A stretch of DNA of 29,476 nucleotides, from NCBI GenBank assembly GCA_026387965.1, contig JAPLKR010000104.1:1-29476 (forward strand). The letters run 5' to 3'. The notes under the pieces were generated by a model. It was not told the DNA's origin, searched no databases, and saw only the letters and a list, made by a program, of their open reading frames with translations. Positions 3,935-14,183 of this stretch are shown here, piece after piece (positions within the stretch are counted from its first letter, which is position 1; each line of letters starts with the position of its first letter). The position numbers were made by a program, and so were the translations under genes. The DNA comes from Fusobacteriota bacterium. GTDB taxonomy: Bacteria > Fusobacteriota > Fusobacteriia > JAPLKR01.

Positions 3935-3981
3935 AAGTGTATGTGGGAAAGTATTTTGTGAAAAAACTACAAGGAGTATTT

Positions 3982-4539
3982 ATGAATTTGTACCGGTTGG
4001 CTTCAACTTATTATGCACTACTGATAACTTGGCGAAAAAAAATGAAAAAATGGGATCCTAATATTGACTCTCCCTTGGCAAAAAAATTCATTTCATATTC
4101 TAATAAATATTATGTAAAAAAAATGATAAATAGGGATTTAAAACCTGAAAATATTCTTGTATTGATGCCACATTGTGTACAAAGCTTTGAGTGTCCTTTC
4201 AAAGTGACATCATATATTGAAAATTGTAAAAAATGTGGAAAATGTAAGATTCAAAATTTACAGGAATTTCATGAAAAATACGGGGTTCATGTAAAAATTG
4301 CAACTGGAGGAACACTTGCTCGAAAAGTAATTAAAGAGACAAAACCAAAATTTGTAATTGCTGTTGCGTGTGAAAGAGATTTAGTATCAGGTATTTTTGA
4401 TATTTATCCGATGCCTGTTTATGGAATTTTTAATGTAAGACCAAACGGCCCCTGTGTAAGTACGGATTTTAATATGGCAGAAGTTAAAAACGTTGTGTTT
4501 CAAGTATTGGAAAAAAAAAATAGTGAGGGTAAAGAATGA
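3982..4539 (+). CDS. DUF116-family cysteine-rich protein
   Basis: A 185-residue protein whose Cys pattern and VATGGT-like core match the DUF116 family, of unknown function. Seven cysteines are visible: Cys65 and Cys71 (PHCVQSFECPF), Cys82, Cys85 and Cys88 (CKKCGKC), Cys130 (ACERDL) and Cys158 (NGPC). Such spacing suggests metal or Fe-S binding, but that is inference. The middle part reads like a small Rossmann-type fold with ATGGTLARKVIKETKPKFVIAVAC. The ATG at 3982 is chosen because AAGGAG sits 5 bases upstream and the promoter lies past the alternative GTG at 3937. Its stop overlaps the next start (ATGA at 4536-4539), so it is translationally coupled to the TPR protein. It has no signal peptide and is probably cytosolic. 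Confidence 0.75.
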   Translation: MNLYRLASTYYALLITWRKKMKKWDPNIDSPLAKKFISYSNKYYVKKMINRDLKPENILVLMPHCVQSFECPFKVTSYIENCKKCGKCKIQNLQEFHEKYGVHVKIATGGTLARKVIKETKPKFVIAVACERDLVSGIFDIYPMPVYGIFNVRPNGPCVSTDFNMAEVKNVVFQVLEKKNSEGKE

Positions 4540-7487
4540 AAAAACGTTTATGGCTAGCAGCTATTATTATTGCTCTGTCACTCAGTTCAACTCTACTTGC
4601 GGATGAGAGCGATTCATTGAGATATATTTATAAATTATCTCAAAATGGATATTATTCTGAAAGTATTGATCAAATTAATCAGTTCATGTCGCAGTATCCA
4701 AACTCGAATTATTATACAACGGCGTTAAGTTTAAAAGGTTATAACTACTTTATGGAGAAAGATTATGTGAATGCTCAAAAGACGTATTTGCAACTTCTAA
4801 ATACTCAATTTGGTGATGAAGCTAATTATTATCTTGAAATGATAGCGATTGCTCAAGCAAATTCAAATAGTGCAATGCAATATTTAACAGCCATATCGCA
4901 AGACTCCACAATGAAGCCGTATGGTTATTTTGCGTTAGCAAATTATTATTTTAATGCAGGAGATTTTGATGAAGCTATTGTGCTTTTTCAATCACTCGCT
5001 AATGGAAATTCTCAATTTGCGGCACAGTCTCAGTTGAAACTCGGGATAGCTTATTTTAATGATAAAAATTATGCACAATCAGCGAGTTCTCTTATGCTTT
5101 TTGTGAAAATTCCTGCACAAGCTCAATTAGACTTAGCGTTGGCAAATTATTATTTAGGATTAGCCAACGAGCAAATTGGAAATACAAGTGCCGCCCTTCA
5201 AGCGTATAGCTTGGTAGTTACTAATGGACAGTCATCTCCGTATTACCCAGATGCCCTGAACAATAGCGCTAAAATATATTTAACTAACGGGAATTCAACT
5301 CAGTTTTTAGCTACAACAAGTTTAATGGAAAAAACAAGTTATAAAGATAAAGCCTATGCTTTAGAGGGCGAGTATTATTTTAACCAAAAGCAATATTCAT
5401 ACGCAGAGACAGCATTTAAAAGTTCTCTTGCTGTGACGGCAAACCCAGCTGTTTTGTATAATTTAATTCTAACGTATTCACTTGAAAATAAGTACCAAAG
5501 TGTTTCGAGCAGTGTTTCAGGACTTCAAAACACACCATTTCAAACGTCTTATAATTATTACTATGTATGGGCTCAGTTTAATTTGAAAAATTATCAAACA
5601 GTATATACCTTCTCTCAAACGCCTTCTAACCTAAAAGTAGATGCTTCTTTGAACCAAAGTTTTTTAGAGATGTTAGCTACAAGCGATTTTGAAAGTGGTA
5701 ATTATTCTGCTAGCACGCGGATTTTTCAAAAACTAATTCAAATCCAACCGCAGCCTCAATTCTATTATAATTTAATACTGATAGCAAGTAAGACAAATGA
5801 TTTAAGCTTAGCTACGCAAACCTACTCAAGTTATACTAAAATTAATGATACAACCTATACAGAAAAAATCACCGCTCTTATGAGTGATATTTATATTTCG
5901 AATAATCAAAGTGATTCTGCAAAGCAACTCTACGTTAGTTATTTAAAACAGAAACAAAATAGTAAGTTTGCAGCAAATCTTTCTGGAATTTATATTACTC
6001 AAGGCAACTACTCTGAAGCTATAGATAGCGCTTCAGATGTTAAAGATTTGGGTACAGCCGCTTATATCAAAGCGATTGCCTATAGTAAAATGGGTGATTT
6101 ATCGAATGCATCGAAAAATTTCAGAATAGTTGTAGAGAAGAGCAAAGATAGCCAGGAAGTTGAAGATAGTTATTTTAATCTTATTTCGCTTGACCTACAA
6201 ACTTCACAGTATAGTACGGCGATTACTGACAGTCAGAAATTTATTCAAAAATTTCCAACGAGCACTTCGCTAAGCGACGTGCAAAAGATGCAAGCGATGG
6301 CTTATTTTAAGTTAGGTAGTTATGATAAAGCGTTGAGTATTTATCAAACTCTATCAAAAGTTAAAGGCCAAGAGAGTTACGCTATTAGTATGAAGGGCCA
6401 ATGTTACTATAATACGGAGCAATATGATTTGGCTTATAATAGTTATAACACAGTGAATACGGCTTACCCTAAATCAAAAGAAGCCGCTGAGAGTCTATAT
6501 TGGATGATCGTCATTAAAGCGAATGGAAGCGATACGATGAGTGTGAAAAAACTCTCTATGAAATTTATAGAAACTCATCCAAATAGCAGTTACCTTTCTC
6601 AAGTCATTCTGCTAGATACCTCGACTTTAACTCAGAACAAGGATTTAACAGATATAAGCAGCGCATTGATTGCTGCCTACGATAAAGCAAACGATAGTAA
6701 GCAGAAAAATATGATTTCAACACAAGTAAGTAAATTGAATATTTCACTTGAGAATTATTCACTTGCTTTTAACTGGAGTCAAAAAATGAGTAAAAACGAT
6801 GAGCAAAAAAGTTTACAAGCTCAAATATATTATCTGCAGAAAAATTATTCTCAAGCGATTCCGATATTAAAAAGTTTGCTTACAAGCTCAACATACAGTT
6901 CATTTGCAAATTATTATTTAGGCTCAGTTTACTTTCAACAAAATCAGTATTCACAGGCCACACCTTATTTAAATACAGTTATAAATGGAAGTGATTTAAC
7001 CTATCAGGACCAAGCGTTATTTAAACAAGCGATAATACTTGAAAATTCTAAAGATTATAAAAATGCAATAATGCTTCTTTTAAAATTAAAACTCATGTAT
7101 CCAAATAGTTCACTTCAAGAGGGGACGCTTATCAAACTTGCACAAGACTATTATCAACTACAAAACTTTGATAAAGCTATTTCGACCTATCAAGATTTTC
7201 TAGGAGAATATCCTAATTCGCAATATATGCAAGATGCTTTAAAAGGGCTGATTGTTTGTCAAATCGAGATTAAAGATTTTTCAACTGCGCAAAATAATTG
7301 TATTGCACTTTCAAAGATAAATCCAACACTTGCAGCAGAACTTAAAGCTATTGTTAATCAAAAAATACATACCAACTCACAAAGCGGGAGCGCTTCACAA
7401 AGTGGTAGCTCGCAAGGTGGTGGCCTATCAAAAAATGTAAAAAATACAATTGGAACAAGTATGCAAAAAGGCAGTATCGGGAAATAA
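4536..7487 (+). CDS. Large secreted tetratricopeptide-repeat protein
   Basis: A 983-residue protein with a clear signal peptide (MKKRLWLAAIIIALSLSSTLLA, cleavage after about residue 22), so it acts in the periplasm or at the cell surface. Almost all the rest is degenerate TPR repeats, recognisable by recurring units such as ANYYFNAGDFDEAIVLFQSL, AYFKLGSYDKALSIYQTL and KLAQDYYQLQNFDKAISTYQDF. The repeats have an unusually high Gln, Asn, Ser and Tyr content. The last 35 residues are a Ser/Gly/Gln-rich tail (QSGSASQSGSSQGGG). TPR arrays bind other proteins; BamD and YbgF are short relatives in outer-membrane assembly and the Tol system. Its position directly before a barrel gene and exbB-exbD-tonB suggests it is the periplasmic partner of that system. 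The partner itself is not identifiable from sequence. It starts by a 4-base overlap with the DUF116 gene. Confidence 0.85.
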   Translation: MKKRLWLAAIIIALSLSSTLLADESDSLRYIYKLSQNGYYSESIDQINQFMSQYPNSNYYTTALSLKGYNYFMEKDYVNAQKTYLQLLNTQFGDEANYYLEMIAIAQANSNSAMQYLTAISQDSTMKPYGYFALANYYFNAGDFDEAIVLFQSLANGNSQFAAQSQLKLGIAYFNDKNYAQSASSLMLFVKIPAQAQLDLALANYYLGLANEQIGNTSAALQAYSLVVTNGQSSPYYPDALNNSAKIYLTNGNSTQFLATTSLMEKTSYKDKAYALEGEYYFNQKQYSYAETAFKSSLAVTANPAVLYNLILTYSLENKYQSVSSSVSGLQNTPFQTSYNYYYVWAQFNLKNYQTVYTFSQTPSNLKVDASLNQSFLEMLATSDFESGNYSASTRIFQKLIQIQPQPQFYYNLILIASKTNDLSLATQTYSSYTKINDTTYTEKITALMSDIYISNNQSDSAKQLYVSYLKQKQNSKFAANLSGIYITQGNYSEAIDSASDVKDLGTAAYIKAIAYSKMGDLSNASKNFRIVVEKSKDSQEVEDSYFNLISLDLQTSQYSTAITDSQKFIQKFPTSTSLSDVQKMQAMAYFKLGSYDKALSIYQTLSKVKGQESYAISMKGQCYYNTEQYDLAYNSYNTVNTAYPKSKEAAESLYWMIVIKANGSDTMSVKKLSMKFIETHPNSSYLSQVILLDTSTLTQNKDLTDISSALIAAYDKANDSKQKNMISTQVSKLNISLENYSLAFNWSQKMSKNDEQKSLQAQIYYLQKNYSQAIPILKSLLTSSTYSSFANYYLGSVYFQQNQYSQATPYLNTVINGSDLTYQDQALFKQAIILENSKDYKNAIMLLLKLKLMYPNSSLQEGTLIKLAQDYYQLQNFDKAISTYQDFLGEYPNSQYMQDALKGLIVCQIEIKDFSTAQNNCIALSKINPTLAAELKAIVNQKIHTNSQSGSASQSGSSQGGGLSKNVKNTIGTSMQKGSIGK

Positions 7488-7508
7488 TATTTTTTTATGG
7501 AGGATATA

Positions 7509-9251
7509 ATGAAGAGAGTTACGGTTATTAGTTCAATCATTGCAACAGCGTTTTCATTAGGTATCGTTTCGTATGGAGCTGTAGCAAATACATCAGGTTC
7601 AAGTGCTACGAGTTCAAATCCTAGTAGTGGATATAATTTAGGGAGCAAAACGGTTCAAGGCGTTGCACCACAATCTATTTCGGTTCAAAATTCGACTCCA
7701 CTGGTTGCACCAATACTAGCGTCTCCGACTCTAGCGGCGCCTCGAACGGTTCAAGCGGTTCAGACACAAAAGGTTTTGCAAGTTCCAGCAGCCCCAGCGC
7801 CATTAGCGATGCCGTTGGCGCCACCAACATTCAATATGAGCACGCTTTCGGTTGCTCCAGAGCAAAGAGTTGTTATGACTCCAGGAAATGAATTATATGC
7901 AAATTACTTTACATTTGGGCTTGGTGGATATAGTATACCAAATCAAAATATTATTATTCTAGATTACTATAAAGAACTTCCACAATATAATTTAAATACC
8001 TATTTTCATGCGGGGCATGAAGCTGGAGGGCAAACGGGGAACAATTCTGAGCTCACAACGGATAACATGTATTTGAAGGGCGACTGGAACAACTGGACTG
8101 GAATTGTTTCAAATACGAATAATCAAAATATTATTCCAAATATGTATAACAATAGTCAAACGTATTCTGTTAATAATAATGATACCAATCTCTATGGTAT
8201 TTATCATTTTATGAATAATACGCCTCAACCGCTTAATATATGAGAGAACATCTAAACGGATAATCAAAATGGAATTCCAAGTAGAATCTATACGAACAAC
8301 TACTTTAGCTTGTTTGCTAATAAAGACCAGGATTTCTACTTGAATTTTTTACCAGGAATTAATCATTATTCAACATTAGGTGGATCTCTTTATACAGATT
8401 CGATACAAAATTATAGAACGAGTTCATTAAATGGTACTGCAACAGATAGACTTCAATTTGTTAATGATCCTACGTTAACAATGAATGTGACAGGTGGACT
8501 GGAATTTGCTAATAATAACGGGCAGGGTCAACTTAATAGTAAAGTCGGAGCAGATGTTAAAAAAGGGTTAGCTCCAAATTATGGAATTACAGGAACTGTG
8601 GGACAAAATAGTTTTAATACACCAATGAGTCAGACGATTAATGGGTTTATATGGGATACAGATGTAATGCTTAATGATCAAAGTCAACTTCAAAGAGAGA
8701 GTGATTACTATGCTGGAATTGGCGGATACGCAACCTATAATCGACTCTATTCAGAGTTGAAATTAATGGGGAATACATCTACAAATAAAATTGTATATGT
8801 AGGACAACCAGAGGGGATACCAGGTTCATTCGGAACAAATCCGATAATTGTTCAAAATATGCCAGGTACACAGTATTACGTAAATGTTGCGTTTAACAAT
8901 ACGTATACCTTAACTGAAAGTTTTAGAGCCTTAGTTAATTATCAATTTTCAACACTTAAACAAGTGACGTATTCACCGCAAAACACCGTGAATTTGGGTG
9001 TTGTGTATACAGTGGGTTCTTATACAATAACACCAACTATGAATTACTACCAAGGGATGTATGGTGGACTTTATCAAACGGAAGCTTTAAACCCATTTTG
9101 GACGTTTGACATTAAAAACACGTATCAGTTGAATTCACAAGTAGCTTTAAATCTATTAATTGGGAATTTATTAAATGCAACACCAGATTATAAACAAGGG
9201 TACCCAATTGCCGGTAGAGTTGTTACTTTTAGCGTACAAACAGCATTTTAA
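7509..9251 (+). pseudogene. Outer-membrane beta-barrel, TonB-dependent-receptor-like without visible plug, broken by two stops
   Basis: Frames 7509-8243 and 8310-9251 are the same phase and together make one protein of about 580 residues. The start ATG 7509 has GGAGG 5 bases upstream. Residues 1-26 are a signal peptide ending AVA. Residues about 48-120 are rich in Pro, Ala, Val and Gln (VAPILASPTLAAPRTVQAVQ) and look like a flexible periplasmic tether. The rest is amphipathic, Asn/Tyr/Gly-rich beta strand pattern. The C-terminus NLLNATPDYKQGYPIAGRVV...AF matches the closing signature of TonB-dependent receptors, including the final Phe used in barrel assembly. No plug domain is recognisable. 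TGA at 8241 and TAA at 8253 interrupt the frame. Without the first half, the second piece has no signal peptide and could not be exported. It may be a pseudogene, a strain-specific loss, or a locus with compensating indels. Ligand unknown. Confidence 0.7.
8241..8255 (+). other. Tandem in-frame stop codons inside the barrel gene
   Basis: TGA (8241-8243) and TAA (8253-8255) lie four codons apart in the barrel frame. The neighbouring +1 frame is free of stops from before 8221 to beyond 8330 and would read IYERTSKR across the gap. A pair of compensating indels is therefore a possible cause, for example loss of a TA in the ATATAT run at 8236-8241. Confidence 0.7.
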
Positions 9252-9276
9252 TTTAATTTGAAAGGAAGTAAAAAAA

Positions 9277-9882
9277 GTGATCGGATTATTTTTAACAGGA
9301 GGATGGGTAATGTATCCACTTCTCATTGTATCAATTATTGGTTTAGCGGTTATGATTGAAAGAATTATATTTTTTTCGACAGTAGAGAGAGGGAATTTTA
9401 ATCATTATTTCCAAAAACATATTGAAGAGTTGATGAAAAAAGGAGATATAAAAGCAGCAATTGAAATGTGCAAAAACAAAAACAATTCAGTAGCGGTCAC
9501 AATTAGAGCAATACTTGAAAATTATGATAGAGATAGAACTTCTCTTCAAGATTTAATTCAAGAAGTAGCTACTACACGAATTGGTATGATGGATAAATTA
9601 ATGTGGCTTCTTGGAATTATTGCCTCAGTCTCACCACTTCTTGGATTACTTGGAACTGTATGTGGAATTATTGTAGCTTTCCAATCTATGGCGATTGAAA
9701 ATGGACTTGGAAAGCCTGAACTTATGGCAAAAGGGATAGGGGAAGCTCTTATTACAACGGCAGCAGGCCTTATAATTGCCATTCCGTGTATGATTGTGTA
9801 TCGATATCTAGAAAATCAGATTGATAATGTTATTTCTGAAATGGAAAAAGTATCTCTTCGTTTCTTAAATATTCATAAATAG
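9277..9882 (+). CDS. exbB: ExbB/TolQ/MotA-family proton channel subunit
   Basis: A 201-residue inner-membrane protein with the ExbB topology: TM1 at about 10-33, a cytoplasmic domain of some 70 residues, TM2 at about 108-138 (SVSPLLGLLGTVCGIIVAF) and TM3 at about 153-175 (EALITTAAGLIIAIP). The two Thr in the pore-lining TM2 and TM3 motifs and the Glu of GEALITT are those conserved in ExbB/TolQ. Five such subunits enclose two ExbD helices and use the proton gradient to drive TonB. It starts at GTG 9277 with AAGGAAG 9 bases upstream. The gene lies between the barrel and exbD, so it most likely powers this locus rather than flagella. TolQ is the alternative name, but the following tonB favours ExbB. 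Confidence 0.93.
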   Translation: MIGLFLTGGWVMYPLLIVSIIGLAVMIERIIFFSTVERGNFNHYFQKHIEELMKKGDIKAAIEMCKNKNNSVAVTIRAILENYDRDRTSLQDLIQEVATTRIGMMDKLMWLLGIIASVSPLLGLLGTVCGIIVAFQSMAIENGLGKPELMAKGIGEALITTAAGLIIAIPCMIVYRYLENQIDNVISEMEKVSLRFLNIHK

Positions 9883-9890
9883 GAGTTGTT

Positions 9891-10313
9891 ATGAATTTAA
9901 GAGGCGCAAGAAGACAAAGGAAAAAAAGTGGTGTTGGTCTTGATATTATTAACTTAATTGATGTTATGTTGGTACTACTTATATTTTTTATGGCAACAAC
10001 CACATTCATGACGGTAAATGATTCTATTCAGTTGAAGTTACCGCATTCGACTATTGTGAATCAAGCACCAACACAGCAAATTGTTGTTTCTATTGATGCA
10101 AATAAAATGATCTACATAAATGGCCAAAATGTTTCACAAGAAGGATTTGTTGCGGAACTTTCAAAAGTTTTAAATAAAGATGGCAATTCGGATATTGTTT
10201 TAATCAAAGGTGATAAATCACTGAGCTATGGTTATTTAGTAAAAATCATGTCACTGGCTAAGGATGCAGGTGCTACGCAACTCGATATTGCAACGACTAC
10301 TGGAGAAAGTTAG
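9891..10313 (+). CDS. exbD: ExbD/TolR-family motor subunit
   Basis: A 140-residue protein with a short cytoplasmic N-terminus full of Arg and Lys, one membrane helix (about 19-40) containing the proton-carrying Asp24 in NLIDVMLVLLIFF, and a periplasmic domain of about 100 residues ending in the usual LAKDAGATQLDIAT beta-alpha-beta unit. It is the partner of ExbB and lies 8 bases after it with its own AGGAG. Length is normal for the family. Confidence 0.93.
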   Translation: MNLRGARRQRKKSGVGLDIINLIDVMLVLLIFFMATTTFMTVNDSIQLKLPHSTIVNQAPTQQIVVSIDANKMIYINGQNVSQEGFVAELSKVLNKDGNSDIVLIKGDKSLSYGYLVKIMSLAKDAGATQLDIATTTGES

Positions 10314-10321
10314 AGGGGAGT

Positions 10322-11365
10322 ATGAAAACTGCAAATAATAAAAAAAGATTTTCACTATCCATTGTAATTTCAGTTATTATTCATCTATTATTTCTTATAT
10401 ATATAGTCTTTTATGTTGCTACCCACCCACCACAGCCACCACAGACTGTTATCCAAGCTAACTTAGTTGATATTTCATCATCAAGTGATGTTGTACAGTC
10501 AACTGTACTTGAGGGAAGTCGAGAAAATAAGCACCCTACTGTAAGCCAAATATCTCAAGCAAAAAAATCTGCTGCTCAAAGTAAAGTGAGTGAGAGTCAA
10601 GCAAAATCAAAAGTGATTGCTTCGACGCCGACTGTGAAAAAGAAAATACTTGCACAGACAAAAGCAGTTCAAACAAATAAAAAATCGGTCATTAATAGTA
10701 GTGCTACAAAAATTCTCTCATCGAGTCATTCCACTTCAAGGCAAGCGGTTACACCACAACCGAGCTTAAATTCAATTATGAATAGTAATGTGAATGAAAG
10801 TGCATTAAATGGTGTGAGTAGTGGGACAAATACCCATAGTAAGGTTCAAGGTAACTCAAATTATTCGACAAACTATCAACTGAAAGCAGGTTCGCTATAT
10901 AAACAAAACAGCAATACAGGAGCAGTATATTCTAGTAGCGGAAGTGTTAATGGTAAGTTAGCGACATCATCAAGTTCGAGTGCAGGAAAGCTATATAATT
11001 CGAGTAGTTCTGATACAGGCGTTGGTCTGAATTCAGCAGGAACTCAAATTGGCAGCAAAAATGGAGCCAATGGTCTAAATATGCAAGTTGTTGGTGGTGG
11101 AAGTGCTATCTGGGATCCAAATAATAAAATGCCACATTACCCACGAGAAGCTGAAAAAAATAGTGTGCAGGGTAGCGTAGGCCTTATTATGACGGTAAAT
11201 GCGAATGGTCAAGTAATAGGTGTTATTGTTAAGAAAAATAGCGGAGATAGTTCGCTTGATAGTGCAGCAATGAATGCAGCAACAAATTGGAAAATATTTA
11301 TTGTAAGAAATGGGAGCTATATCCCTGGAAAGGTACAAATTACAATTCAATTTAAATTAAAATAA
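10322..11365 (+). CDS. tonB: TonB energy transducer with Ser/Asn-rich linker
   Basis: A 347-residue protein anchored by one N-terminal helix (about 11-33) that keeps the Ser-x3-His pattern (Ser17, His21) needed in TonB for contact with ExbB/ExbD. The C-terminal domain at about 257-347 is a TonB_C fold: PHYPREAEKNSVQGSVGLIM and GDSSLDSAAMNAATNWKI are the usual motifs. TonB spans the periplasm and pulls on outer-membrane receptors. The linker (about 50-255) is not the usual Pro-Glu/Pro-Lys type: it is Ser, Asn, Gly and Lys rich, with a loosely repeated unit around AGSLYKQNSNTGAVYSSSG and AGKLYNSSSSDTGVGLNSAG. Only a short PPQPP stretch follows the membrane helix. The gene is spaced 8 bases after exbD and ends this envelope cassette. 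Confidence 0.92.
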   Translation: MKTANNKKRFSLSIVISVIIHLLFLIYIVFYVATHPPQPPQTVIQANLVDISSSSDVVQSTVLEGSRENKHPTVSQISQAKKSAAQSKVSESQAKSKVIASTPTVKKKILAQTKAVQTNKKSVINSSATKILSSSHSTSRQAVTPQPSLNSIMNSNVNESALNGVSSGTNTHSKVQGNSNYSTNYQLKAGSLYKQNSNTGAVYSSSGSVNGKLATSSSSSAGKLYNSSSSDTGVGLNSAGTQIGSKNGANGLNMQVVGGGSAIWDPNNKMPHYPREAEKNSVQGSVGLIMTVNANGQVIGVIVKKNSGDSSLDSAAMNAATNWKIFIVRNGSYIPGKVQITIQFKLK

Positions 11366-11382: not shown

Positions 11383-12780
11383 ATGAAATTGGTGTGTTTT
11401 AATTTTATTCCAAGCAAAATACTAAAACTTCGTGAAGAGATGCGTGTGTTTACTGAAATTTATTCTGTTCAATCAGAACAAAATTTACTCACATATATTG
11501 TCGAACAAAAACCGGATGCTATTCTTGTAAACAATAAGGATATGGAAGAGAGTGCGCTCACATTAGTAGAACACATTAAAGGTATTGATAATAAAATACT
11601 TATTTTTTTATACGGCACAGGGGTTAATTTGAAAATAATTATTTCATCTATGAAAATCGGTGCATATGATTATTTAATTGCAAGTGAAAAAGATGAAAAA
11701 AAAGTTTTGGCTACGCTTGAAAAAGCAATTAATAACCAAAAATTAAAATCCAAAAAAATATTTACTGAAAAAGGCATCGATATCGAAGAAGAGATGATCG
11801 GAACAACTGAAGAGATGCTCAATGTGTATAAAATGATAGGCAGAGTATCTAACTTAGATCTGCCTGTTTTGGTTATTGGTGAAACGGGTACAGGTAAAGG
11901 CATTATTTCAAGAGCGATACATCGCTATGGAAATCGAACTGATAAACCATTTGTAACGGTTCGTTGTTCAACTCTTAATACAACACTATTTGATGAAGAG
12001 TTATTTGGCTTTTTGCCTGAAGCCAATTTTGAAGGCACTAAAACAGGTAAATTTGAACTTGCAGAAGATGGGATACTCTGTTTTGAAGATATCAGCGGTT
12101 TAAATTTAGATGTTCAAGGAAAACTTTTGAGTTTACTTCAGGATAAACATTATACGAAAGTAGGCGGAAGCGAGAGAATCCTTATTCAATTCAGAATCAT
12201 TTATACGACGGATAGCGATTTAGAGCAGTTAGTTTCTGAAGGTAAATTCATGCAAGAGCTGTATCATAGAGTTCGAGTTATTAAGATTGAAATTCCGTCT
12301 TTAAGGGAGCGGAAAGAAGATATTCCGTTCTTAGTAAACCAATTTATCAAAGAGTTTAATGATGAACTAGGGAAAAACATCAAAGGAATATCGGAAAACA
12401 CGCTTAAGCTTATACATAGTTACAGTTTTCCAGGGAATATAAGAGAACTTAAAAATATTATTAAAAGTTCAATTGCAGTGTGTCGTGGGAATACAATATT
12501 AGTAGAAGATTTACCTGCAAACATGGTTGAAAATAAAGTAACGACGCGGCATGGCGATTTACAAGATTGGGTACTTCAAGATTGGATCGCAGGGGAAATT
12601 GATATTTTAAAAGAAAATTCAGAACAAGATTATTATGATAGAATTATATCTCGTGTTGAGAGAGAATTGATCACTCAAATCCTGCGTGATACCAATAATA
12701 AAAAAGTTGAAACAGCCGAAATTTTAGGGATAACGCGGAATACCTTACGCTCAAAAATGAAAAATTTTGGAATGGAGTAA
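11383..12780 (+). CDS. NtrC-like AAA+ regulator lacking GAFTGA and phospho-acceptor Asp
   Basis: A 465-residue protein with the NtrC-family order: receiver-like domain (1-120), AAA+ domain (about 138-365) and Fis-type helix-turn-helix (about 430-463, VETAEILGITRNTLRSKM). The receiver has Asn50 where the phosphorylated Asp should be (PDAILVNNKD). The AAA+ part has a good Walker A (GETGTGKG, 166-173) and Arg finger region (LYHRVRV, 293-299). However, the sigma-54 contact loop that normally reads GAFTGA is EANFEGT (213-219), and Walker B ends Phe-Glu-Asp (234-236) instead of Leu-Asp-Glu. This predicts a DNA-binding protein that does not respond to a kinase and does not activate sigma-54 in the usual way; TyrR-like action on sigma-70 promoters is one precedent. 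It follows tonB by 17 bases and overlaps dnaX by one base, so it may regulate this operon. Targets are unknown. Confidence 0.85.
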   Translation: MKLVCFNFIPSKILKLREEMRVFTEIYSVQSEQNLLTYIVEQKPDAILVNNKDMEESALTLVEHIKGIDNKILIFLYGTGVNLKIIISSMKIGAYDYLIASEKDEKKVLATLEKAINNQKLKSKKIFTEKGIDIEEEMIGTTEEMLNVYKMIGRVSNLDLPVLVIGETGTGKGIISRAIHRYGNRTDKPFVTVRCSTLNTTLFDEELFGFLPEANFEGTKTGKFELAEDGILCFEDISGLNLDVQGKLLSLLQDKHYTKVGGSERILIQFRIIYTTDSDLEQLVSEGKFMQELYHRVRVIKIEIPSLRERKEDIPFLVNQFIKEFNDELGKNIKGISENTLKLIHSYSFPGNIRELKNIIKSSIAVCRGNTILVEDLPANMVENKVTTRHGDLQDWVLQDWIAGEIDILKENSEQDYYDRIISRVERELITQILRDTNNKKVETAEILGITRNTLRSKMKNFGME

Positions 12781-14183
12781 TGATGCTATATCGTAAATAC
12801 CGACCTTTATGTTTTGAACAAGTTAAGGGGCAAGAGACTACAGTTATCAGTCTTAAAAATGCACTAAAACTTGGAAAGCTACACCATGCAATTCTTTTTT
12901 GCGGACCTCGTGGGCTTGGGAAAACTACGCTTGCAAGAGTGCTTGCAAAATGTGTGAATTGTATTACTCACCCCATGTCAGCTACCCCTTGTTTAGTGTG
13001 TGAAAGTTGTAAGGCCATTACGAACGGAAGTTTTATGGATGTCTTAGAGATTGATGCGGCATCTAATAGAGGAATCGATGAAATTCGTGAATTAAAAGAG
13101 AAAATAAATTATAGACCTTCTGTTGGGATAAAGAAAATTTTTATTATCGATGAAGTTCATATGCTTACAACGGAAGCTTTTAATGCTCTTCTTAAAACCT
13201 TAGAAGAACCTCCAGAGCATATTATGTTTATTTTAGCGACAACCGATCCCGAAAAGTTACCAGACACGATACTTTCGAGGTGTCAACGGTTTGATTTGGC
13301 AAGCATTAACTATAATGACTTAAAAATATTGCTATCTGAAATTTTGCTTCAAGAAGAAGTTAAAATAGAAGACTCTGTCTATAAAGTGATTTTTGAAAGA
13401 AGTGGAGGTAGTATTCGCGATTCACTTTCACTGCTTGAAAAATTAATTTTATCAAGTGCTGATGGTGTGTTAACTTTATCGAGTGTTGAAAAAAATTTAG
13501 GCTTTGTTCCAGAGGAGAAATTTCAATTTTTTGAAAACGTTGTTTTTTCCACACAAATTGGAAAAGTATTAGAGTTTATTGATGAATTATGGCTTGAAGG
13601 AATTGAAGTAGATGATTTTTTTAAGCAGTTTTGTTATTATCTTAAATCAAAAAGCCTACAAAATAAAGAATCGAATTTTGAATGGATTGAAGAAATTTTA
13701 TCTGTACTATATCACTTTAAAAATGAGGAAGATAAGCGATTAATTGGATATGTTGTAGTACATAAAATTAGAGAACTTGAAATTCCACGTGAAAAAAACA
13801 GTAAGAAAAATTTAGTCTCGATGAGAGAAAAAATAAGTGTAAAAAGTGAAATATCACTTAAAGAGATAGAGTCAAGATGGAATGAGTTGCTTTCGATTTT
13901 AAAAAGAAAAAGAATTGTCATGATGGCTTATTTGAGTGGTTCAAAGCCGATTAGCATTGAAGGAAATACTCTGTTAATAGAATTTCCAGAAGGCCATCAA
14001 TTTCATGTTGAATCGATGAGCAAGCCAAAAAATCGTGAGTATTTGGAAGAAATTTTTTTTGAAGTTTTTAATATTGTATTAAAAATAGATATACAAATCG
14101 TTAGAAATTTGGTAGTTGATGAGGAAGAGGATCTTTTGAAGAAAGTAATGGATGTATTTGGTGGAGAAATAGTTTCAAAATAG
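12780..14183 (+). CDS. dnaX: DNA polymerase III subunit gamma/tau
   Basis: The clamp-loader ATPase. The N-terminal AAA+ module is standard: LYRKYRPLCFEQVKGQ, Walker A GPRGLGKT (42-49), zinc-binding cysteines at 61, 71, 74 and 77, Walker B FIIDEVHML (about 122-130), LLKTLEEPPEH and the LSRCQRF sensor/Arg finger. Domain III runs to about residue 350. The remaining 110 residues are short and Lys-rich, so at 467 residues the protein is gamma-sized rather than tau-sized. The first ATG overlaps the previous stop (taATG); the second ATG at 12783 is better spaced from GGAG at 12773-12776 and may be the true start. The Thr of the Walker A GxxGTGKT form is Leu here, which is minor. Confidence 0.94.
   Translation: MMLYRKYRPLCFEQVKGQETTVISLKNALKLGKLHHAILFCGPRGLGKTTLARVLAKCVNCITHPMSATPCLVCESCKAITNGSFMDVLEIDAASNRGIDEIRELKEKINYRPSVGIKKIFIIDEVHMLTTEAFNALLKTLEEPPEHIMFILATTDPEKLPDTILSRCQRFDLASINYNDLKILLSEILLQEEVKIEDSVYKVIFERSGGSIRDSLSLLEKLILSSADGVLTLSSVEKNLGFVPEEKFQFFENVVFSTQIGKVLEFIDELWLEGIEVDDFFKQFCYYLKSKSLQNKESNFEWIEEILSVLYHFKNEEDKRLIGYVVVHKIRELEIPREKNSKKNLVSMREKISVKSEISLKEIESRWNELLSILKRKRIVMMAYLSGSKPISIEGNTLLIEFPEGHQFHVESMSKPKNREYLEEIFFEVFNIVLKIDIQIVRNLVVDEEEDLLKKVMDVFGGEIVSK

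Follow-up and report, generated by a model that had tools for sequence, protein, structure and literature searches.

A TPR protein, a plug-less receptor barrel and an ExbB–ExbD–TonB motor encoded together in Fusobacteriia: a candidate envelope machine that may act without plug-type receptors

The established role of TonB is to energise gated receptors. Several described systems each resemble in part the locus considered here. TonB-dependent receptors have a barrel homologous to the one found in this locus and an N-terminal TonB box, where the protein of the locus has a box-like motif after its signal peptide, but the barrel of the locus is without a plug. The Tol-Pal system (TolQ-TolR-TolA-TolB-Pal-CpoB) shares with the cassette a motor of the same family driven by the proton motive force, a transducer of the TonB/TolA type, a TPR protein in the operon and, as proposed here, an outer-membrane partner not engaged in transport; it differs in that the cassette transducer is a TonB_C protein and not TolA, that TolB was not detected, that either a receptor barrel lacking a plug or a mini protein would be the outer-membrane partner, and that the cassette TPR protein is about 950 aa long. 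Akin to the cassette, the Vibrio TonB2 operon (ttpB2-ttpC2-exbB2-exbD2-tonB2-ttpD2) encodes a TPR protein, TtpD2 (PMC6957404), along with exbB, exbD and tonB, although TtpD2 has 425 aa and is encoded last, and TonB2 serves siderophore receptors whereas the cassettes persist without detected receptors; no ORFs resembling TtpB or TtpC were found in the sampled cassettes. Uncharacterised TPR genes also adjoin TolQ/R-type motors in TPR-TolQ-TolR-TolR-vWA loci, in which the transducer is a vWA protein and no plug-less receptor barrel has been described (PMC12204202). Finally, the TPR-barrel exporters of polysaccharides (AlgK-AlgE, PgaA, BcsC, PelB) combine a periplasmic TPR part with an outer-membrane barrel as the cassette does, but the cassette has no synthase or glycosyltransferase nearby, its barrel is related to TonB-dependent receptors and it is energised by TonB. 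In the open-access literature we found no described system of a TPR protein with a plug-less TonB barrel.

The window, by which we mean the whole stretch of DNA analysed (29,476 nucleotides, contig JAPLKR010000104.1 of assembly GCA_026387965.1, Fusobacteriota bacterium), belongs to a genome of 1.79 Mb in 141 contigs that is 95.5% complete (G000 in our set). The features of the locus are as follows.

3937..4539, plus strand: DUF116 protein gene (Pfam PF01976, 2e-49), overlapping the TPR start by 4 bp
4536..7487, plus strand: TPR gene, product exported, 983 aa, with TPR Pfam matches
7497..9251, plus strand: barrel gene, TonB-receptor-like and without a plug, its frame broken by stops in the window genome; profile match to receptor barrels only
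7632..7670, plus strand: N-terminal TonB-box-like motif YNLGSKTVQGVAP in the barrel gene, followed by a proline-rich linker; empirical p 0.008
7914..9248, plus strand: beta-barrel region, start approximate, from the alignment and hhalign to receptor barrels
8241..8255, plus strand: two in-frame stops in the barrel gene, TGA 8241-8243 and TAA 8253-8255
9277..9882, plus strand: exbB (PF01618, MotA_ExbB, 1.5e-28), Thr127 and Thr161 conserved
9891..10313, plus strand: exbD (PF02472, 3.6e-27), transmembrane Asp24
10322..11365, plus strand: tonB (PF03544, TonB_C, 2.3e-15, domain at 11132-11359), SxxxH in the transmembrane helix
11383..12780, plus strand: NtrC-type AAA+ regulator gene (PF00158, 8e-45), conserved downstream neighbour
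12780..14183, plus strand: dnaX, by homology with dnaX-like ORFs of related loci, conserved downstream neighbour

The TPR, barrel, exbB, exbD and tonB genes form a run of five, as the first-pass annotation had described. They lie on one strand with a spacing of 8-25 bp; over the stretch from the DUF116 gene to dnaX the intergenic gaps are between -4 and 25 bp. The complete ExbB/ExbD/TonB motor that it reported is borne out by the three Pfam matches given above and by the conservation of motor residues: Thr127 and Thr161 of ExbB are kept in the cassette copies, and the transmembrane Asp24 of ExbD in at least 19 of 20 of them. TonB has the transmembrane SxxxH in the window and in several relatives; in most lineages with the mini protein (see below) and in G076 and G077 Asn replaces the His (SxxxN), a change that, going by work in E. 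coli, would be tolerated. In E. coli TonB the Ser/His pair contacts ExbB (PMC12215075). A single TonB_C match, the cassette's own, was detected in the window genome, and no plug domain was detected there. The first gene of the run encodes, as claimed, a secreted TPR protein of 983 residues with an N-terminal signal peptide; no lipobox was seen in it. It matches NCBIfam TIGR02795 (YbgF) at 137.8 bits (cut-off 90.1), a match that is repeat-generic, and scores far below cut-off against CpoB PRK10803. Assignment as a specific ortholog of YbgF, GltE or PorW was rejected, the matches being repeat-generic. Two ORFs resembling a broken transposase lie at the start of the contig (window 466-1313).

The barrel was compared with known receptors by profile alignment. 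With hhalign against sixteen plug-bearing Fusobacteriota receptors, residues 125-553 of the barrels align with receptor residues 174-648 (Prob 97%, E 4e-11), leaving the receptor plug region unaligned, and the first 113 residues align weakly, only with the signal peptide and TonB-box region of the receptors (E 0.0013). Since the alignment spans the barrel part of the receptors only, the window protein is, as judged from its sequence, a TonB-receptor barrel without a plug. In accord with the plug-less barrel proposed earlier, the plug domain PF07715 has no match in the window barrel, nor was a plug detected in the intact homologues examined, where finding one had been named as a way to refute the proposal. 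The Fusobacteriota barrel homologues examined fall under no Pfam or NCBIfam family; the homologue from Ca. Desantisbacteria matches PF00593 at 73.8 bits, again without a plug. A PDB sequence search placed BtuB chains among the best matches, over the last strands only. An AlphaFold2 model of the window barrel, translated across its stops, is unusable, with a mean pLDDT of 30.

The gene order is not peculiar to this strain, the second outcome that had been named as refuting: DUF116-TPR-X-exbB-exbD-tonB-NtrC-dnaX recurs across the class, with DUF116 beside the TPR gene in most loci examined, so that the cassette is no chance juxtaposition. A single TPR ortholog is present in 61 of 98 class genomes (E below 1e-30) and absent at that threshold from family f4, which would include Fusobacterium. 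What varies is the gene at position X. In eight genomes (the window genome, G027, G040, G057, G073, G001, G076 and G077, the last split by contig ends) it encodes the plug-less barrel; in 51 class genomes (mini-profile search, E below 1e-15) it encodes an exported mini protein of about 115 aa, whose matches sit by coordinates directly 3' of the TPR gene. Likewise, the slot between TPR gene and exbB holds an exported protein of 98-126 aa in 12 sampled genera and in Fusobacteriaceae bacterium UBA2433 (NCBI lineage Fusobacteriota, Fusobacteriia). A hydrophobic C-terminal helix is found in 10 of 13 sampled minis and is absent from three. In a tree of DnaX, ExbB and ExbD the sampled minis (n=13) form one clade (UFBoot 96) among the barrel lineages, with the root on G001, and the TPR tree groups them likewise; given this root, the simplest reading of the trees is that the barrel would have been replaced by the mini once. 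The 0.8-Mb genome G001 itself, which has no plug receptor, retains a strongly diverged TPR-barrel-exbB-exbD-tonB cassette (L044).

The minis share with the barrel only the N-terminal TonB-box-like motif, which in them (DKEVTGVNK-like) directly follows the signal peptide, and which in the barrels reads NKEVQGVNQ (G077), TKDVIGVNE (G076), EKDVVGKDK (G027), EKEIVGEDK (G040) and SKTVQGVAP (window). When a motif profile built from the minis alone was scanned against a background of 2927 ORFs, the G077 and G076 barrels outscored every background ORF, and empirical p values were 0.0017 for G027, 0.002 for G040 and 0.008 for the window; the barrels of G057, G073 and G001, where the motif is weak, were not significant, and ordinary receptor TonB boxes gave no scoring match to the mini profile. 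An hhalign comparison of minis with barrels (Prob 84%, E 8e-6) covers the signal peptide and the motif, the signal peptide accounting for part of it. The window motif aligns with the motifs of other barrels. The motif is conserved and is placed as receptor TonB boxes are, in the region of the weak N-terminal alignment to receptors noted above.

Loci in other phyla were reached by a DUF116 scan, the barrel alignment being too divergent; it returned mostly loci without a cassette, yet led to Ca. Desantisbacteria and Cloacimonadota. In Ca. Desantisbacteria (G107, L162) a TPR gene is followed by a plug-less PF00593 barrel with the N-terminal motif QDILITGED and by exbB and exbD, with no tonB up to the end of the contig. 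In three Cloacimonadota genomes (G166, G152, G171) a TPR protein of about 980 aa is followed by an exported protein of 491-492 aa with boxes of the LPDIEVSGES type. G104 likewise has a TPR protein, and the ORF after it, which is cut off, carries PDIIITGES. At their ends the Cloacimonadota TonB-box proteins show a weak match to the ends of receptors, and exbBD do not adjoin the pair. The boxes of both phyla resemble ordinary TonB boxes and may thus bridge the Fusobacteriota motif to them. At L165:1902-4014, and at equivalent places in L164 and L166, the Cloacimonadota pair has near it a membrane protein of about 280 aa without a Pfam match as well as a divergent deacetylase of the polysaccharide type (PF04748), and three genomes share this order. 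In a further 41 genomes no TPR protein matched at 1e-20. Distant cassettes would escape this threshold, as the first case from Cloacimonadota, with an E-value above it, shows, and the other phyla covered here are a sample only.

These comparisons bear on a transport machine, in which the barrel would be a channel, the TPR protein would take the place of the plug, and TonB would power the passage of a large substrate into or out of the cell. The receptor origin of the barrel and a TPR scaffold adjoining it, with a full motor, are what such a machine would look like; however, a protein of about 115 aa replaces the barrel in 51 class genomes with TPR and motor retained, from which it follows that the conserved core needs no pore encoded in the cassette, and the cargo-channel idea is weakened by a barrel that can be dispensed with. 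The conserved neighbours (DUF116, the NtrC-type regulator and dnaX, and further out HEAT, rplI or dnaB) moreover include no synthase, no glycosyltransferase and no substrate-related gene. We therefore consider transport unlikely, and the earlier suggestion that the TPR protein takes over the gating of large cargo is not supported, the mini standing in for the barrel and no polymer-synthesis genes lying nearby. (A specific tie of the cassette to the replication genes was considered and rejected, the nearby dnaX, rplI and dnaB being housekeeping genes.)

Genomes in which no plug domain was detected speak to the use of the cassette TonB. Among the class genomes tested, all eight plug-free ones with the cassette keep TonB (G000, G001, G015, G050, G057, G074, G075, G076), while tonB is found in none of nine plug-free class genomes without the cassette (G003, G018, G021, G026, G029, G039, G042, G045, G051), a contrast with a p of 4e-5 when kinship is ignored, although the nine all come from one family. 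A second TonB occurs in G015 and in G076, the latter genome being only 70% complete. In light of this contrast, the cassette TonB is probably used for something besides receptors. In three cassette genomes with one TonB and one receptor (G027, G040, G073) it may serve both, as would be expected were the cassette a general TonB energiser of ordinary receptors, with the TPR protein as an accessory and the barrel or mini as an accessory or a degenerate receptor. Such an arrangement has a precedent in the V. vulnificus TonB2 operon, where the uptake of siderophores requires the TPR protein (PMC6957404), but we think it improbable here, as the cassette is kept in G000, G001, G050, G057, G074 and G075, where plug receptors were not found, and receptor-rich genomes (e.g. 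G034) often have a further TonB near their receptors. The first-pass proposal of a dedicated energised envelope machine is thereby well supported, the window genome having no detected plug-type receptor and a single detected TonB and the other plug-free cassette genomes keeping tonB, and we lean towards a dedicated TonB machine independent of receptors.

In the window the barrel gene is not intact. Its frame runs for 248 aa to the TGA at 8241-8243, meets a TAA at 8253-8255 and continues in the same frame, so that the barrel of about 580 residues taken as intact in the first-pass annotation is a read-through; a whole-genome search reported the same two stops. In the seven other genomes the barrel homologues are without in-frame stops, six being intact frames of 510-595 aa and that of G077 consisting of two stop-free halves split by contig ends. 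A frameshift as the origin of the window stops was rejected, since the frame is identical on both sides and aligns with homologues across them; the stops may be genuine or an assembly error. A product ending at them would retain signal peptide, motif and linker, like the minis of relatives. A decay of the cassette in the window genome, with the barrel a pseudogene and the system on its way out, has in its favour the two stops, 12 bp apart, and a barrel paralogue without the motif that exists elsewhere in the genome. We regard decay as decidedly improbable: the remaining four genes are intact and the motor residues conserved, the barrel frame is otherwise open and can be aligned in frame across the stops, an assembly error is possible, and the truncated product would still bear the motif. 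The paralogue mentioned (L011:6606-9983, G000:C50, minus strand) shares one frame with an upstream CydC-like ABC transporter, the junction having neither a stop nor a start codon; this may be a genuine fusion by deletion or an artefact of the assembly.

Export of polysaccharide by TPR protein and barrel, as in AlgK-AlgE, PgaA, BcsC or PelB, has the architecture in its favour and is nonetheless very improbable, given conserved neighbours without synthase or glycosyltransferase, a barrel akin to receptors and the dispensability of that barrel.

The explanation that we prefer is a dedicated TonB-driven force machine that would act on the envelope by way of an adaptor with a TonB box and a TPR scaffold, independently of plug-type receptors and with a possible role at the outer membrane; taken as a whole, we hold it to be evenly poised between right and wrong. 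In such a machine the C-terminal domain of TonB would bind the N-terminal box and pull on it by means of the proton motive force, and the TPR protein would surround the adaptor as a scaffold in the periplasm. In lineages that have the barrel, it would serve as an outer-membrane anchor for the pull and not as a gated pore. The inner membrane would in this way be coupled mechanically to the outer one by the cycle. The likeliest role would be stabilisation of the outer membrane, constriction, or recycling of outer-membrane components. These are functions of a Tol-Pal-like kind, and TolB is all but missing from the class: TolB_N (PF04052) has weak matches only, in 4 of 98 genomes, and is absent from the window genome. 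As a published survey finds Tol-Pal confined to Gracilicutes (PMC12204202), a Tol-Pal-like envelope role of the cassette is attractive, if unproven, and we put it forward tentatively. Also tentative is the full proposition that the cassette would be a widespread and hitherto uncharacterised TonB-powered machine for outer-membrane stabilisation or division, a functional counterpart of Tol-Pal in diderms without the latter, in which a receptor barrel would have lost its plug, become an outer-membrane anchor for force and later given way to the mini.

Here, a motor and its TonB are kept without a detected gated receptor; their neighbours are a TPR scaffold and a receptor barrel bereft of its gate, and this suggests that TonB motors do mechanical work on the envelope besides importing nutrients. 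The exchange of the barrel for a TonB-box-like protein of about 115 aa amounts to a natural experiment on the purpose of the barrel. Both the origin of Tol-Pal from a TonB-type system and the energising of the outer membrane in diderms that lack Tol-Pal would, through this cassette, become testable in culturable relatives.
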